From Halalkaliarchaeum desulfuricum (GTDB taxonomy: Archaea > Halobacteriota > Halobacteria > Halobacteriales > Haloferacaceae): DNA of 64,000 bases. Location of the stretch: contig NZ_CP025066.1 of assembly GCF_002952775.1 (NCBI RefSeq), positions 310,001 to 374,000 of the forward strand. Direction: 5' to 3'. Shown piece after piece: positions 20,100 to 32,349 of this stretch; position 1 is the stretch's first letter, and each line of letters opens with the position of its first letter. The notes under the pieces were generated by a model. It was not told the origin of the DNA, did not search any database, and saw only the letters and a program-made list of their open reading frames with translations. The position numbers and the translations under genes are program-made.

Positions 20100-20579
20100 A
20101 TGAATCGGATCCACGTCGCCGGCGGCGTCGGGGTCGCCCCAACGGAGATGGCCGCCTACGATGCGGCGCTTGCCGACGCGAACCTCCACAACTACAACCT
20201 GGTTCGCGTCTCCTCTATCGTCCCCGCCGGGGCGGCGGTCGAACGCGTCGACCGGGCGCCGGATCTCGGGCCGGCCGGCAACCGCCTCACCGTCGTGGAA
20301 TCGCGGATCACGGCCCCACCGGGGGCGAGCGACGACCCGCTCGTCGCCGGACTCGGATGGGCGACGGGTCCCGGACCGGGGCTGTTTTACGAGGCGACCG
20401 GGCGGGACCCGACGGCGGTCCGACGGGAACTCGAGGACGGCCTCGACGCCGGGAGCGAACTCCGGGACTGGGCGCTGCCGGACCGGGAGTTCGAGGTGAC
20501 GACCGCTCGCCCCGAAGACGGCGCCTGGACGACCGTCGTCACGGTCGCGGTGTACGGCGAGAGCGAGCCGGTGCTGTAG
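20100..20579 (+). CDS. pdaD: Pyruvoyl-dependent arginine decarboxylase
   Basis: A 159-aa self-processing enzyme that makes agmatine from arginine. Cleavage at the Ser-Ser bond in LVRVSSIVPAGA (about residues 38-39) would give the pyruvoyl cofactor; the flanking LHNYNLVRVSS is typical. GWATGPGPGLFYEATG is the conserved glycine-rich loop. In archaea agmatine is needed for agmatidine at the wobble C of tRNA-Ile2, so the gene is essential in some species. The ATG at 20100 is preceded directly by an in-frame GTG. Arginase and ArgF are elsewhere in the window. Confidence 0.95.
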   Translation: MNRIHVAGGVGVAPTEMAAYDAALADANLHNYNLVRVSSIVPAGAAVERVDRAPDLGPAGNRLTVVESRITAPPGASDDPLVAGLGWATGPGPGLFYEATGRDPTAVRRELEDGLDAGSELRDWALPDREFEVTTARPEDGAWTTVVTVAVYGESEPVL

Positions 20580-20614
20580 ACCACCTTTGCTGCGGTCGCT
20601 CGCCGGTCGGCTCG

Positions 20615-20625
20615 TTCAAATCCCC
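20615..20625. repeat. T-arm-like fragment downstream of tRNA-Ser
   Basis: TTCAAATCCCC is the T-loop plus 3' stem strand of a tRNA. It lies 64 nt beyond the 3' end of tRNA-Ser and on the opposite strand, flanked by GCTCGC-rich sequence (CTGCGGTCGCTCGCCGG and AGCTCGCTCGAG). The same fragment occurs in each 125-bp unit next to tRNA-Thr. Confidence 0.6.
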
Positions 20626-20688: not shown

Positions 20689-20773
20689 CGCCGAGGGGGA
20701 GATTTGAACTCCCGAGTCCTGACGGACAGTTGCTCTCGAGGCAACCGCCTTGGCCGGGCTAGGCTACCTCGGC
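20689..20773 (-). tRNA. tRNA-Ser (anticodon CGA)
   Basis: The 85-nt gene folds as a class II tRNA. The acceptor stem is GCCGAGG/CCTCGGC, the anticodon stem GTTGC/GCAAC encloses loop CTCGAGA (anticodon CGA, reading UCG), a long variable arm TGTCCGTCAGGACTC follows, and the T-arm is GGGAGTTCAAATCTCCC. The discriminator is G73, as expected for serine. No CCA is encoded and no intron is seen. SerS is encoded 8 kb away. Confidence 0.95.
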
Positions 20774-26440: not shown

Positions 26441-28711
26441 ATGGGTTCGTGTATCATCTGTGGTGCGTCTGTCGACGGACGAATCTGCGACAGCCACCAA
26501 GAAGACGTCGTTTTCGAATTTCGTGGAGACTCCCCGGACCAGCTGGTTCCGGGTCGATACTACCGTGGCACCGTCGACGGCTACGCCGACTTCGGCGTGT
26601 TCGTCGATCTCGCCCCCGGTGTCACCGGACTGTTGCACCGCAGCGAGCTCGACCGCCGGCTGGAGTCGCTCGACTGGGAGCCCGGCGACACGGTGTTCGT
26701 CCAGGTGAAGAACGTCCGTGACAACGGCAACATCGATCTCGGCTGGTCGATCCGGCAGGAGAAGCGGGAGTTCCGGGGCGCGCTGGTTCAGGACGGCGAA
26801 ACCGATCGGGAACCGGAGCCGGAACCGGAACCAGAACCGGAACCGGAACCGGAATCGGAACCGGTACCAGAACCGGAACCGGAACCGGAATCGGAACCGG
26901 AACCGGAAACCAGCGACCGAGAGCAGACGGAATCGGACGTCGAGAAGGAGACGGTAACCGGCGGTCAGGACGTGGTGACACCGACCAGTAGCGGCAAGGA
27001 CGGGGGGACAGCCGACGACCGGCCGACCTCCCGGAGCACCGAACCCGACGACACCGGTGATGACGGGGCGACGGAAGCGTCGGAAGCGTCCGGCGATGCG
27101 GGTGCGACTGCGGTCGCGAAACCGGAGTCGGGAGCCGAACCATCAACAGAAGCCGAATCATCGGCCGAACCCGCAACCGGAGCCGAATCCACGGCCGAGG
27201 TCGAACCAGGAACCTCCATCGAACGGGTGTCCATCGAAGAGCTGTCGGACGCCGTCGGCGAGACGGTCCGGCTCGAGGGGGAGATCGTGAGCGTGCGTCA
27301 AACGGGCGGACCCACGGTGTTCGAACTCCGCGACGAAACCGGCGTGGTGGACTGTGCCGCGTTCGTCGAACCCGGCGTCCGCGCGTACCCGGACGTGGGA
27401 GTCGACGACGTCGTGCGGCTCGAGGGCGACGTGGAGCTCCGGCGCAACGAGATCCAGGTCGAGACCGGCGCGCTCGTCGCGCTCGAGGATGACGACCGCG
27501 AGGAGGTGGTCCAGCGGCTCGAAGACGCCCTGGCCGCGAAGGCACGCCCGGACGCCTTCGAACCCATCGGGGACCACGAGACGGTCGAGACGCTACGCGA
27601 GCCGATCCTGGACGCAGCCGAGGCGCTCCGCCGGGCCGTCCTCGAGAGCCGGCCGATCGTCGTCCGACATCCGGCGACGGCGAACGGCTATCTCGCCGGC
27701 GCCGCCGTCGAACGCGCGGTGTTGCCGCTCGTGGCCGAGGAGTACACCGGCTCCGACGCCGAATATCACTACTTCAAGCGCCGCCCGCTGGAGTCGTCGG
27801 TGTACGACATGGACGACGCGACGATGGACGTCACGCGGATGCTCCAGGACCGGGACCGGCACGACGAGAAGCTCCCATTGTTTCTCCTGCTGGGTGCGGG
27901 AGCGACCGCCGAGTCGGAAGACGGGCTGGACCTGCTCGACATCTACGACGCCACGCGGGTCGTCGTCGACTCCGAGCCGGCGGACCCGGAAGCCGGCGAC
28001 CACGCCGCGGTGCTGGTCGCACCCGAGGAAGACGACGGCGCCCTGTCTGTAGGCACACTCGGCTCGGAACTCGCCGCGACGATCGACGCCGACGCCAGGG
28101 ACGAACTCCGCCATCTCCCGGCGACGAGCTACTGGGAGGAGGCGCCGGAGGCGTACGCCGAGGTGGCCGACGAGGCCGGCTACGACGCCGACAAGCGGCG
28201 GGACCTCCGCGAGGCGGTCGCACTGGAGGCGTACTATCAGTCCTACGAGGACAAACGCGAACTGATCACGGACCTCCTGTTCGGCGAGGGAAGCGAGGAT
28301 CTCGCCGGGCACGTCGCCGAGCAGTTCCGCGTGAAGGTCGACACCGAGGTGGCGACCGCTCGAGAGAACCTCGATCGAACCGCCCGCGGCGGGGTCGAGT
28401 TCGCGCTGCTGGACACCGACGCCTACACCCACCGGTACGACTTCCCCCCGACGTCGCTGCTTCTCGACGAACTGCACCGTCGGGAGCGAACCGACGGGGC
28501 GTTCGCGACGGTCGGCGTCGGTACCGACGAGCTGTTCGTCCGGTCGACGTTCGATCTCGACCTCCGGGCGGCCGTCGACACCGCCAGAGAGACCGTTCCC
28601 GAGGCGGATCTCGGGGTCGCAGACCTTCGCGACGGGCGCGTGGAGTTCCTGGCCGGCCGTCGGGACGACGCCCGGGACGCGATCGTCGACGCCATCGTCG
28701 ACCAGGCCTGA
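26441..28711 (+). CDS. DHH/RecJ-like exonuclease with S1 and OB domains
   Basis: A 756-aa archaeal single-strand-specific nuclease-like protein. Order: a zinc finger at residues 4-19 (CIICGASVDGRICDSH); an S1 RNA-binding domain at about 30-110 (GRYYRGTVDGYADFGVFVDL); a long acidic Glu-Pro linker at about 125-260; an OB domain with ETVRLEGEIVSVRQTGGPTV (about 265-345); and a DHH phosphoesterase-like part from about 380 on. The Glu-Pro tract is coded by a 6-bp repeat (GGAACC) at 26810-26909, which could vary in length. Related archaeal RecJ proteins act with GINS in replication or in repair. TATA at 26409-26416 supports the ATG at 26441. Confidence 0.9.
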   Translation: MGSCIICGASVDGRICDSHQEDVVFEFRGDSPDQLVPGRYYRGTVDGYADFGVFVDLAPGVTGLLHRSELDRRLESLDWEPGDTVFVQVKNVRDNGNIDLGWSIRQEKREFRGALVQDGETDREPEPEPEPEPEPEPESEPVPEPEPEPESEPEPETSDREQTESDVEKETVTGGQDVVTPTSSGKDGGTADDRPTSRSTEPDDTGDDGATEASEASGDAGATAVAKPESGAEPSTEAESSAEPATGAESTAEVEPGTSIERVSIEELSDAVGETVRLEGEIVSVRQTGGPTVFELRDETGVVDCAAFVEPGVRAYPDVGVDDVVRLEGDVELRRNEIQVETGALVALEDDDREEVVQRLEDALAAKARPDAFEPIGDHETVETLREPILDAAEALRRAVLESRPIVVRHPATANGYLAGAAVERAVLPLVAEEYTGSDAEYHYFKRRPLESSVYDMDDATMDVTRMLQDRDRHDEKLPLFLLLGAGATAESEDGLDLLDIYDATRVVVDSEPADPEAGDHAAVLVAPEEDDGALSVGTLGSELAATIDADARDELRHLPATSYWEEAPEAYAEVADEAGYDADKRRDLREAVALEAYYQSYEDKRELITDLLFGEGSEDLAGHVAEQFRVKVDTEVATARENLDRTARGGVEFALLDTDAYTHRYDFPPTSLLLDELHRRERTDGAFATVGVGTDELFVRSTFDLDLRAAVDTARETVPEADLGVADLRDGRVEFLAGRRDDARDAIVDAIVDQA

Positions 28712-30531: not shown

Positions 30532-31191
30532 TTACTGGCTGTGAGTTGCGGGGCTGCTGGAGTTCCGGCGGCGAGTGACTCGCCCGGCAACGAACAGTGG
30601 GAGGCTGCAAATCGCGGTGATCGGGATTGTCACGAGTACGACCGGGAGGGTAAAGAGCAAAGCGAGAATCAACCACCCTCCCTCAAGGAGGGCGAGGAGC
30701 AGAATGCCGACGAGCATTATGAGCGGAATTACCCCTATTCCTGCGAGTACGAGATAGCGGTGTGTTCGTTTTTCGGCAACCCCGAGGGGGAATAACCAGG
30801 CAGCAACGTAACAGACGTAAACAGGAGCAGGTGCCAGCAGGTCGGGTCTGATCGTGCTTTCGCGGAGGACATCGGGCACGGAAACGACCACGACGCTCGA
30901 GACGAACGCGACAGCTGCGATACCGAGAGTTCTCCGAAACGACAGCCGCGGCAGCCATTCAGTCCGGTTCCGCATGATGAGGACAGCGCCGAAGCAGAGA
31001 TGAATCACACCGAGGCCGGCCGCTGCCCAGCCGATGAGGTCAACGGCGTCCCCCGGCAGTCCTCCAATAGAGACGCCGGGAACAGCAGGAAGCTGGGCGA
31101 TACCGAGCCAACCGATCCCGATGACTACCAACCCGACGCCAGCCCATCGGCGGAACCGATCGAAATACTGTTGGACAGACTCTCCAGGCAT
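30532..31191 (-). CDS. Uncharacterised multi-pass membrane protein
   Basis: A 219-aa protein with six or so hydrophobic helices: about residues 18-40, 52-75, 83-105, 119-137, 142-165 and 170-198. The N-terminus (MPGESVQQYFDRFRRW) is amphipathic, and the C-terminus is basic and polar (RRRNSSSPATHSQ). I recognise no family or motif. It lies just 2 nt from the end of elp3 on the other strand and is followed upstream by repeat DNA. The translation looks like real coding sequence because hydrophobic blocks are regular and codon bias is GC-ending. Confidence 0.7.
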   Translation of the reverse strand: MPGESVQQYFDRFRRWAGVGLVVIGIGWLGIAQLPAVPGVSIGGLPGDAVDLIGWAAAGLGVIHLCFGAVLIMRNRTEWLPRLSFRRTLGIAAVAFVSSVVVVSVPDVLRESTIRPDLLAPAPVYVCYVAAWLFPLGVAEKRTHRYLVLAGIGVIPLIMLVGILLLALLEGGWLILALLFTLPVVLVTIPITAICSLPLFVAGRVTRRRNSSSPATHSQ

Positions 31192-31310
31192 GCCACTCGA
31201 TCACGAGTGGTACTCATTCGGCCGACGGATAACGGTTCGCGTTACTCAAACGTCGGATTGGCCCACGGAATGACTCGGTTGATCGGACAGTCAGACCAGG
31301 GCGATGTGAT

Positions 31311-31730
31311 TCTTCGGTCTCGCTTCGCTCGACCAGCAGAGCCAGGGCGGGGATTGTGAACCACGCCGAGACGGTCCTGCTCGCTTCGCTGCGCGGGCTG
31401 CGACTCGTCTCATTCAAATCCCCTTCAGGGGTGGCTCTTCGGTCTCGCTTCGCTCGACCAGCAGAGCCAGGGCGGGGATTGTGAACCACGCCGAGACGGT
31501 CCTGCTCGCTTCGCTGCGCGGGCTGCGACTCGTCTCATTCAAATCCCCTTCAGGGGTGGCTCTTCGGTCTCGCTTCGCTCGACCAGCAGAGCCAGGGCGG
31601 GGATTGTGAACCACGCCGAGACGGTCCTGCTCGCTTCGCTGCGCGGGCTGCGACTCGTCTCATTCAAATCCCCTTCAGGGGTGGCTCTTCGGTCTCGCTT
31701 CGCTCGACCAGCAGAGCCAGGGCGGGGATT
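31311..31730. repeat. Perfect 125-bp tandem repeat array leading into tRNA-Thr
   Basis: Three identical 125-bp units start at 31311, 31436 and 31561. A fourth, partial unit (31686-31730) runs straight into tRNA-Thr and loses identity inside the tRNA. Each unit thus holds the last 16 nt of the tRNA (acceptor strand and part of the T-arm, 31340-31355 in unit 1) plus the 3' flank, a GCTTCGCT-rich part, and an inverse T-arm-like TTCAAATCCCC. The unit length is not a multiple of three and no stable reading frame exists, so it is non-coding. Confidence 0.95.
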
Positions 31731-31788
31731 TGAACCCCGGAAGTCTCGATTACAAGTCGAGTGCATGAACCACCCATGCTCCCCTGGC
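31715..31788 (-). tRNA. tRNA-Thr (anticodon UGU)
   Basis: A 74-nt gene folds as a normal class I tRNA: acceptor GCCAGGG/CCCTGGC, D-arm GCAT...ATGC, anticodon stem CTCGA/TCGAG with loop CTTGTAA (anticodon TGT, reading ACA), variable loop ACTTC, T-arm CGGGG TTCAAAT CCCCG, and U73. No CCA is encoded and no intron is visible. Its 3' end is duplicated in the adjoining repeat array. Confidence 0.95.
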
Positions 31789-31863
31789 ACGTCGTCGCCG
31801 TGCAGGCGTTTCTACTGTGTCCTCCTTTGAGTCTCTGTCGTTTTTCGCCACCGAACGACGGTG

Positions 31864-32349
31864 TCACTCCTCGAGTCGCTTTTCGAACTCGATCCGGTGT
31901 GGCCTGTAGCCGTGCCGCCGGTAAAACCGACGTGCGCCCTCGTTTTCGGCCATGGCGTCGAGCGACACCGCCTCGGCCCCCGCCTCCCGGAGTGTCCCTT
32001 CGGCGGCTTCGAGGAGCTGTGACCCGACACCGCGATTTCGAGCTTCGGGGCGAACGTAGAGGTTGTCCACGATTCCGCGGGCGACGTCCTGGCGATAGCG
32101 CCCCGTCTCCATCGAGAACATGACGAATCCCAGAGGCTCTTCGAGGTCCTCGGTCGCGGGTTCGTCGCCCTCCGGACGCGCAACCAGAACGGTGCCTGCG
32201 ACGACTCCCCGTCCGATGACCTCGCGGATCAGGTCCCGGTTCGCCTCCGAAAACAGATGCGAGTCGTACGCGCGCTGCTCGGCGGCGAGTTCGACCCACC
32301 AGTCCGCGAGCAGATCCACCTCCGACAGCGTGGCGGGTTCGACGTTCAC
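31864..32349 (-). CDS. GNAT family N-acetyltransferase
   Basis: A 161-aa acetyl-CoA-dependent acetyltransferase. Motif A is visible as IVDNLYVRPEARNRGVGSQL with LLEAAEGTLREAGAEAV following, and YRRHGYRPHRIEFEKRL is the family C-terminal strand. The start at 32349 is supported by a TATA-like TCTTATTAGG about 18-28 nt upstream. The substrate (an amine or protein N-terminus) is unknown. It is divergent from the XPB gene, sharing the short intergenic region with it. Confidence 0.88.
   Translation of the reverse strand: MNVEPATLSEVDLLADWWVELAAEQRAYDSHLFSEANRDLIREVIGRGVVAGTVLVARPEGDEPATEDLEEPLGFVMFSMETGRYRQDVARGIVDNLYVRPEARNRGVGSQLLEAAEGTLREAGAEAVSLDAMAENEGARRFYRRHGYRPHRIEFEKRLEE

Follow-up and report, generated by a model that had tools for sequence, protein, structure and literature searches.

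A perfect 125-bp tandem array at a haloarchaeal tRNA-Thr gene as a member of a class-wide family of tRNA 3′-end hairpins with signs of mobility

The tRNA-Thr(UGU) gene of Halalkaliarchaeum desulfuricum carries at its 3′ end a perfect 125-bp tandem array that belongs to a class-wide family of tRNA 3′-end hairpins with signs of mobility, an assignment that replaces an earlier reading of the array as stacked attachment-site remnants. We give a probability of about 0.7 to the array being the tandem amplification of one of these Halobacteria-wide elements, which are cargo-less hairpins of ~90–180 bp. Behind this reading stand the anatomy of the units, their cognate ends, compensatory changes in the hairpin, differences between sister species and the presence of the same core at different tRNAs, all of which we observed.

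The window, that is, the whole 64,000-nucleotide stretch analysed, comes from a genome that consists of a single contig of 3,313,120 bases. Within it, positions 31311–31730 on the minus strand form a direct repeat of 125 bp that extends over 3.36 periods with every copy identical. Tandem Repeats Finder reported 31311–31736 with a period of 125 and 3.4 copies at 99%, and a comparison at lag 125 gave 295 consecutive identical positions (31311–31605 against 31436–31730, 100% identity), a run that chance cannot give; both agree with the perfect 125-bp tandem repeat of the preliminary description. The tRNA-side end of the array falls within the intact tRNA-Thr(UGU) gene that anchors it by its 3′ end (31714–31788, minus strand; ARAGORN (tgt); Rfam tRNA, 51.9 bits). 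The last 16 nt of this tRNA, AATCCCCGCCCTGGCT, occur four times, at 31715–31730 in the tRNA itself and at 31590–31605, 31465–31480 and 31340–31355, so that each unit does contain them as had been claimed. The array copies of the T-loop read GTTCACAATC where the tRNA has GTTCAAATC, with one extra base (GTTCAC-AATC), which makes the ‘inserted G’ noted earlier on the plus strand correct.

On the strand of the tRNA, each unit is made up, in this order, of a trailer, an inverted T-arm GGGGATTTGAA, a core GACGAGTCGCAGCCC...GGACCGTCTC and a directly repeated tRNA 3′ end. Unit 1, the tRNA-proximal one (31590–31714), carries all these parts, including a direct T-arm/acceptor copy, and is identical to units 2 (31465–31589) and 3 (31340–31464); the three, all on the minus strand, match our covariance model R1 at 31600–31673, 31475–31548 and 31350–31423, respectively. 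The trailer palindrome GGTCGAGCGAAGCGAGACC lies at 31691–31709, 31566–31584, 31441–31459 and 31316–31334, and its congeneric counterpart has GATC/GATC for GGTC/GACC, a paired change. The inverted T-arm copy, which across units is cognate to the host tRNA, occupies 31663–31673, 31538–31548 and 31413–31423; the conserved hairpin core GAGACGAGTCGCAGCCC...GGACCGTCTC, which is supported by structure and covariation, occupies 31618–31661, 31493–31536 and 31368–31411; and the directly repeated T-arm and acceptor 3′ strand, GTGGTTCAC-AATCCCCGCCCTGGCT with its T-loop one base longer, occupies 31590–31614, 31465–31489 and 31340–31364, all of these features again on the minus strand. The lag-125 comparison places a partial fourth unit, trailer palindrome only, at 31311–31339 (minus strand), with unique flank beyond, and it leaves no cargo between the tRNA-end copies of the array. 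The truncated end is thus the tRNA-distal one, inside the fourth trailer, and the three hairpin cores and four trailer palindromes, all identical, bear out the earlier count of three copies and a fourth partial one. An Rfam search of window positions 30900–32100 gave no match to the RtT family up to an E-value of 5. Elsewhere in the window, a probable decayed unit, tentatively assigned, lies at 20555–20625 (minus strand) behind tRNA-Ser(CGA) (20689–20773) and retains the inverted T-arm and the left hairpin half (GGGGATTTGAACGAGCCG...CGGCTCGCTC), the 3′-end copy being gone. A separate repeat at 26809–26908 consists of the hexanucleotide GGAACC (16.7 copies) within a 756-aa open reading frame (26441–28711, plus strand), where it encodes a Pro-Glu repeat.

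A BLAST search of its own genome with the array turned up weaker matches, the majority of which stand immediately behind other tRNA genes. A copy of the tRNA’s own 3′ end (at least 13 nt) lies no more than 700 nt downstream of 17 of the 42 tRNA genes examined in H. desulfuricum and 19 of 42 in the congener (genome G001), that is, 36 of 84 when pooled or ~40–45% per genome, as compared with the ends of other tRNAs in the same downstream regions, which were found in 13 of 1460 and 19 of 1472 comparisons (32 of 2932, ~1%). A search of named haloarchaeal genomes with a pattern that combined the inverted arm with the core’s left half and included no tRNA position identified 23 loci (in Natrinema, Natronococcus, Halovivax, Halobaculum, Haloferax and others), every one of which lies just downstream of a same-strand tRNA gene; the tRNAs include those for Lys, Gly, Phe, Ser, Cys, Met and Val. 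An exact cognate 3′-end copy of at least 12 nt is present in 22 of these 23 arrays; at L226 it sits in the neighbouring unit, and L218 has a degenerate copy only. With R1, whose T-arm consensus brings some bias to tRNA loci and which leaves the acceptor copies outside the model, all matches in the H. desulfuricum genome at E < 0.05 are behind a tRNA except two behind a 48-nt tRNA-Leu remnant, and tRNAs with cognate copies accompany 25 of 25 further class-level loci and 28 of 30 phylum-level loci, the two exceptions being L238, behind a partial tRNA-Val, and L239, whose tRNA has no exact copy. The one-base T-loop insertion seen in the array recurs in 17 of the 66 copies scored, about a quarter. 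Homogeneous tandem arrays are also common, such as four copies of 156 bp behind tRNA-Pro(CGG) in H. desulfuricum and four of about 87 bp behind tRNA-Leu(CAA) in G001.

At a presence cut-off of E ≤ 1e-4, R1 detected the element in 234 of 242 Halobacteria genomes and 69 of 74 genera. A phylum-wide draw gave 50 of 53 Halobacteria and none of about 242 Halobacteriota outside the class, the split being one in which 225 negatives are not itemised and class is read from table order. Our search of the literature, which covered open-access papers, found no description of such a family, and we provisionally regard it as apparently new to the literature. This spread bears on two simple accounts of the array. 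Slippage or unequal crossing-over of a chance segment at one tRNA would yield perfectly identical copies in tandem and so explain the copy number; it does not explain why the same structured unit recurs at dozens of tRNAs in nearly all Halobacteria, and such an isolated duplication is highly improbable. We attach equally little weight to an assembly artefact, in which the copy number would reflect collapsed or expanded reads: zero divergence between copies is what this would produce, but the single-contig genome speaks against it, as do similar arrays in many independent assemblies, whose units often differ from one another, and the unit would be real even if its exact copy number were wrong.

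Two further observations concern related sequences. At L031 and L060, behind Arg tRNAs of H. desulfuricum, and at L162 in G001, we noted a second type of 3′-end copy with a CCCCGCTCGC...GCGGGG-type hairpin and no inverted T-arm. In some haloarchaea the inner core AGTCGCAGCCC...GGAACGTCT is additionally found at dispersed sites that are not near tRNAs, where different stems flank it (L111, L115–L118, L121, L122, L136–L139, L141 and L142); the dispersed loci tested had no match in Rfam. These copies with other flanks suggest that the association with tRNAs may not be intrinsic to the core.

Given an alignment of 36 units (A1) and no structure, RNAalifold chose a 14-pair hairpin that combines the inverted repeat of the T-arm with a stem that varies, an internal loop that is conserved (TCGCAG / ACCGT) and a GC stem. 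Paired bases fill 96.4% of the cells at these positions, compared with at most 53% for control partners slid along the alignment, and 35 cells are altered on both sides, compared with 7.9 in shuffles, none of 500 of which reached this number. Specifically, the variable stem takes the forms CGAG/CTCG, GAAG/CTTC, CCAG/CTGG and GGAG/CTCC. The inverted arm follows the host tRNA as well: its T-loop heptamer matches its own tRNA at 98% and other tRNAs at 63%, and at the stem positions the match to its own tRNA is better than to others, which none of 2000 permutations equalled. The covariation and the cognate inverted arm together indicate that it is the folded single strand on which selection, or else a copying process, acts. 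We base the case for structure on covariation, since DNA folding of a single unit was only mildly better than that of shuffles (z of −1.5 for the whole unit and −2.4 for the core). Rfam contains no matching family besides tRNA. We also considered whether the antisense T-arm might belong to a C/D or H/ACA guide RNA and set this aside, as the linker adjacent to the arm varies too much to hold a box motif. Integron attC sites were likewise weighed on account of the hairpin and array plan, and we make no claim of kinship with them. One unit, L251 in genome G038, behind tRNA-Ser(GGA), has a core in reverse orientation within its T-arms, the arrangement that recombination between the inverted arms would be expected to produce.

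At the orthologous tRNA-Thr site of the congener, where the flanks can be aligned, we found one trailer and a left-half remnant with no 3′-end copy; the array is therefore variable within the genus, and the recent or ongoing duplication proposed in the preliminary description gains support. At tRNA-Met the two species form a filled and an empty site that differ by about one unit, and at tRNA-Pro(UGG) and tRNA-Gly(GCC) an additional unit in the congener lies between the tRNA and the unit common to both species. One of the G001 units at Gly(GCC) looks like a chimaera of those beside it. The tRNAs that bear units are not the same set in the sister species. A 48-nt core behind Pro(UGG) in G001 has an identical counterpart behind Lys(CUU) in H. 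desulfuricum (G000) and one that is 96% alike behind Trp, and the core type CCTACCAGTCGCGCGCAGCG...CACGTCTGG lies behind many different tRNAs in G001; such nearly identical cores behind different tRNAs indicate movement. Core similarity between the species averages 0.45 for the same tRNA and 0.11 for different tRNAs. Because same-tRNA cores are on average more alike, yet cores are common to different tRNAs, both inheritance and movement contribute. We consider the existence of the family of tRNA 3′-end hairpins, together with its mobility, highly probable.

The conservation of structure is also expected of a functional RNA, and to that extent it counts against a mobile element. The unit could be transcribed with the pre-tRNA and serve in processing, as a decoy or in regulation, by analogy with the annotated RttR small RNA of E. 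coli, whose tyrV/rttR repeat has the same anatomy. A role of this kind would suit the conserved internal loop with its compensatory changes and the nearly fixed orientation of units behind tRNAs. We nevertheless judge it unlikely, given that unit-bearing tRNAs differ between sister species and copy number ranges from none to several, that the core inversion at L251 would hardly be tolerable in a dedicated RNA, and that no Rfam family matches.

Integration classically targets the 3′ ends of tRNA genes (PMC8371274), and this is the point from which the attachment-site reading starts: viruses or plasmids would have integrated there repeatedly by means of a tyrosine integrase, and the units would be joined att arms after loss of cargo or would have come from attP-only minicircles moved in trans. 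Serial integration would likewise leave extra units on the tRNA-proximal side, as some are. No tyrosine integrase (PF00589) was matched in the window’s stretch of the genome, in line with the absence of a nearby integrase gene reported earlier. The same genome does contain a genuine provirus, of ~29 kb, in tRNA-Leu(UAG) (C1:2306800–2336270): behind the tRNA comes unit-free sequence that contains an integrase gene at 2335007, and the far end of the provirus bears a 48-nt partial tRNA-Leu and two units, one of which has the core type found directly behind Leu(UAG) in the congener. The tRNA remnant and the two units beyond it indicate that the provirus displaced existing units by its ~29 kb and did not create them, and in its appearance it is unlike the array. 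R1 had no match at the genome’s own integrase loci, nor in that portion of the Leu(UAG) provirus which was searched. An integrase-bearing element of ~3 kb in genome G241 has tRNA-Gly(UCC) and its unit on one side and, on the other, a partial tRNA of 43 nt that carries an identical unit (L316, 1054–1177 and 4093–4216; 124 bp, 100% identical), which favours the attachment-site reading and suggests that integrase-bearing elements may carry units around.

Other searches concerned enzymes and possible sources of the core. Among 13 genomes, tyrosine integrases and Y1 transposases occur both with and without the elements, and their correlation is thus uninformative. A Y1 (IS200/IS605-type) transposase gene (C1:3279886–3280212, minus strand) lies ~190 bp upstream of a tRNA-His that bears three units. 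Viral contigs were tried as a source of the core and discarded, as all 20 matches to a 16-mer of it were chance matches within unrelated sequence. A distant search for the core found nothing convincing in phages and partial matches in a few haloarchaeal plasmids. Such absence of the core, apart from chance, from phage records and viral contigs tells to some degree against attachment-site remnants. The logic of the att site itself also speaks against them: each integrase supplies an att of its own and is restricted to a single tRNA, whereas here one core type is found at many tRNAs with cognate ends, and a minicircle would bear the end of its donor tRNA and could hardly serve many others. We therefore rate the attachment-site reading as improbable, and stacked remnants are not the best description of a conserved hairpin with an inverted T-arm at dozens of tRNA genes.

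We favour a non-autonomous hairpin element combined with unequal recombination. Against this count that no mobilising enzyme could be linked to the elements and that assemblies show neither circular nor excised forms. The core would be a mobile hairpin with the universal T-loop sequence TTCRAATC as its insertion site. The direct 3′-end copy may derive from the target, through extension of the hairpin’s GTTCAAATC end along the target tRNA and trailer, and the inverted arm could be kept matched by hairpin-templated (quasipalindrome) correction. With two copies present, unequal homologous recombination would multiply the unit, which could give the three identical copies at tRNA-Thr. The tRNA would stay functional throughout because a complete copy remains upstream, and an element that always leaves the tRNA intact could have many safe insertion sites. 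This particular copying route for the target-derived ends is tentative, and we would sooner bet against it than for it. We speculate further, with somewhat less conviction, that mobile hairpins across the class might have new ends supplied by the target tRNA, for example by a single-stranded hairpin primed on the T-arm, with the E. coli tyrT repeat as a distant case.

Structured units stand behind tRNA genes in nearly every haloarchaeal genome examined, yet without an Rfam family, and they confound annotation in that false attachment sites and spurious ORFs appear in the surroundings of tRNA genes. If the units take their ends from the target when they move, few mobile elements would avoid harm in this way. 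The units also make an old oddity, the E. coli tyrT repeat, open to comparative study.

The closest known counterpart is indeed tyrT/tyrV of E. coli K-12 MG1655 (rttR small RNA, tpr), whose sequence we read directly. Three tandem 178-bp units stand behind tRNA-Tyr at tyrV/rttR, each ending with an exact 19-nt copy of the tRNA 3′ end, and all three contain GGGGAAGGAT, the tRNA end in inverted form, upstream of GC-rich hairpins; at this locus (L290, E. coli K-12 1285700–1287500) the T-arm half AAGGTTCGA is followed by ~68 nt of hairpins before AATCC. The window’s array and the E. coli repeat therefore share tandem units of similar size, a cognate 3′-end copy, and an inverted copy with hairpins, but the E. 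coli repeat stands at one locus, differs in sequence, with another core, and includes the encoded CCA in its copies, whereas haloarchaeal units occur at many tRNAs. The att duplications of integrases, for example those of SNJ2-type haloarchaeal elements, likewise duplicate a tRNA 3′ end, leave the gene intact and can place extra units next to the tRNA; the haloarchaeal units differ in having no cargo or integrase, in their hairpin core and inverted T-arm, and in that one core type is found at many tRNAs with cognate ends in place of one tRNA per integrase. REP, BIME and MITE-type elements resemble the units in being short, cargo-less, multicopy and hairpin-forming, with apparent lineage-specific bursts. 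In contrast to these, no parent transposon was found for the haloarchaeal units, which lie at tRNA 3′ ends and have ends that follow the host tRNA and not the element.
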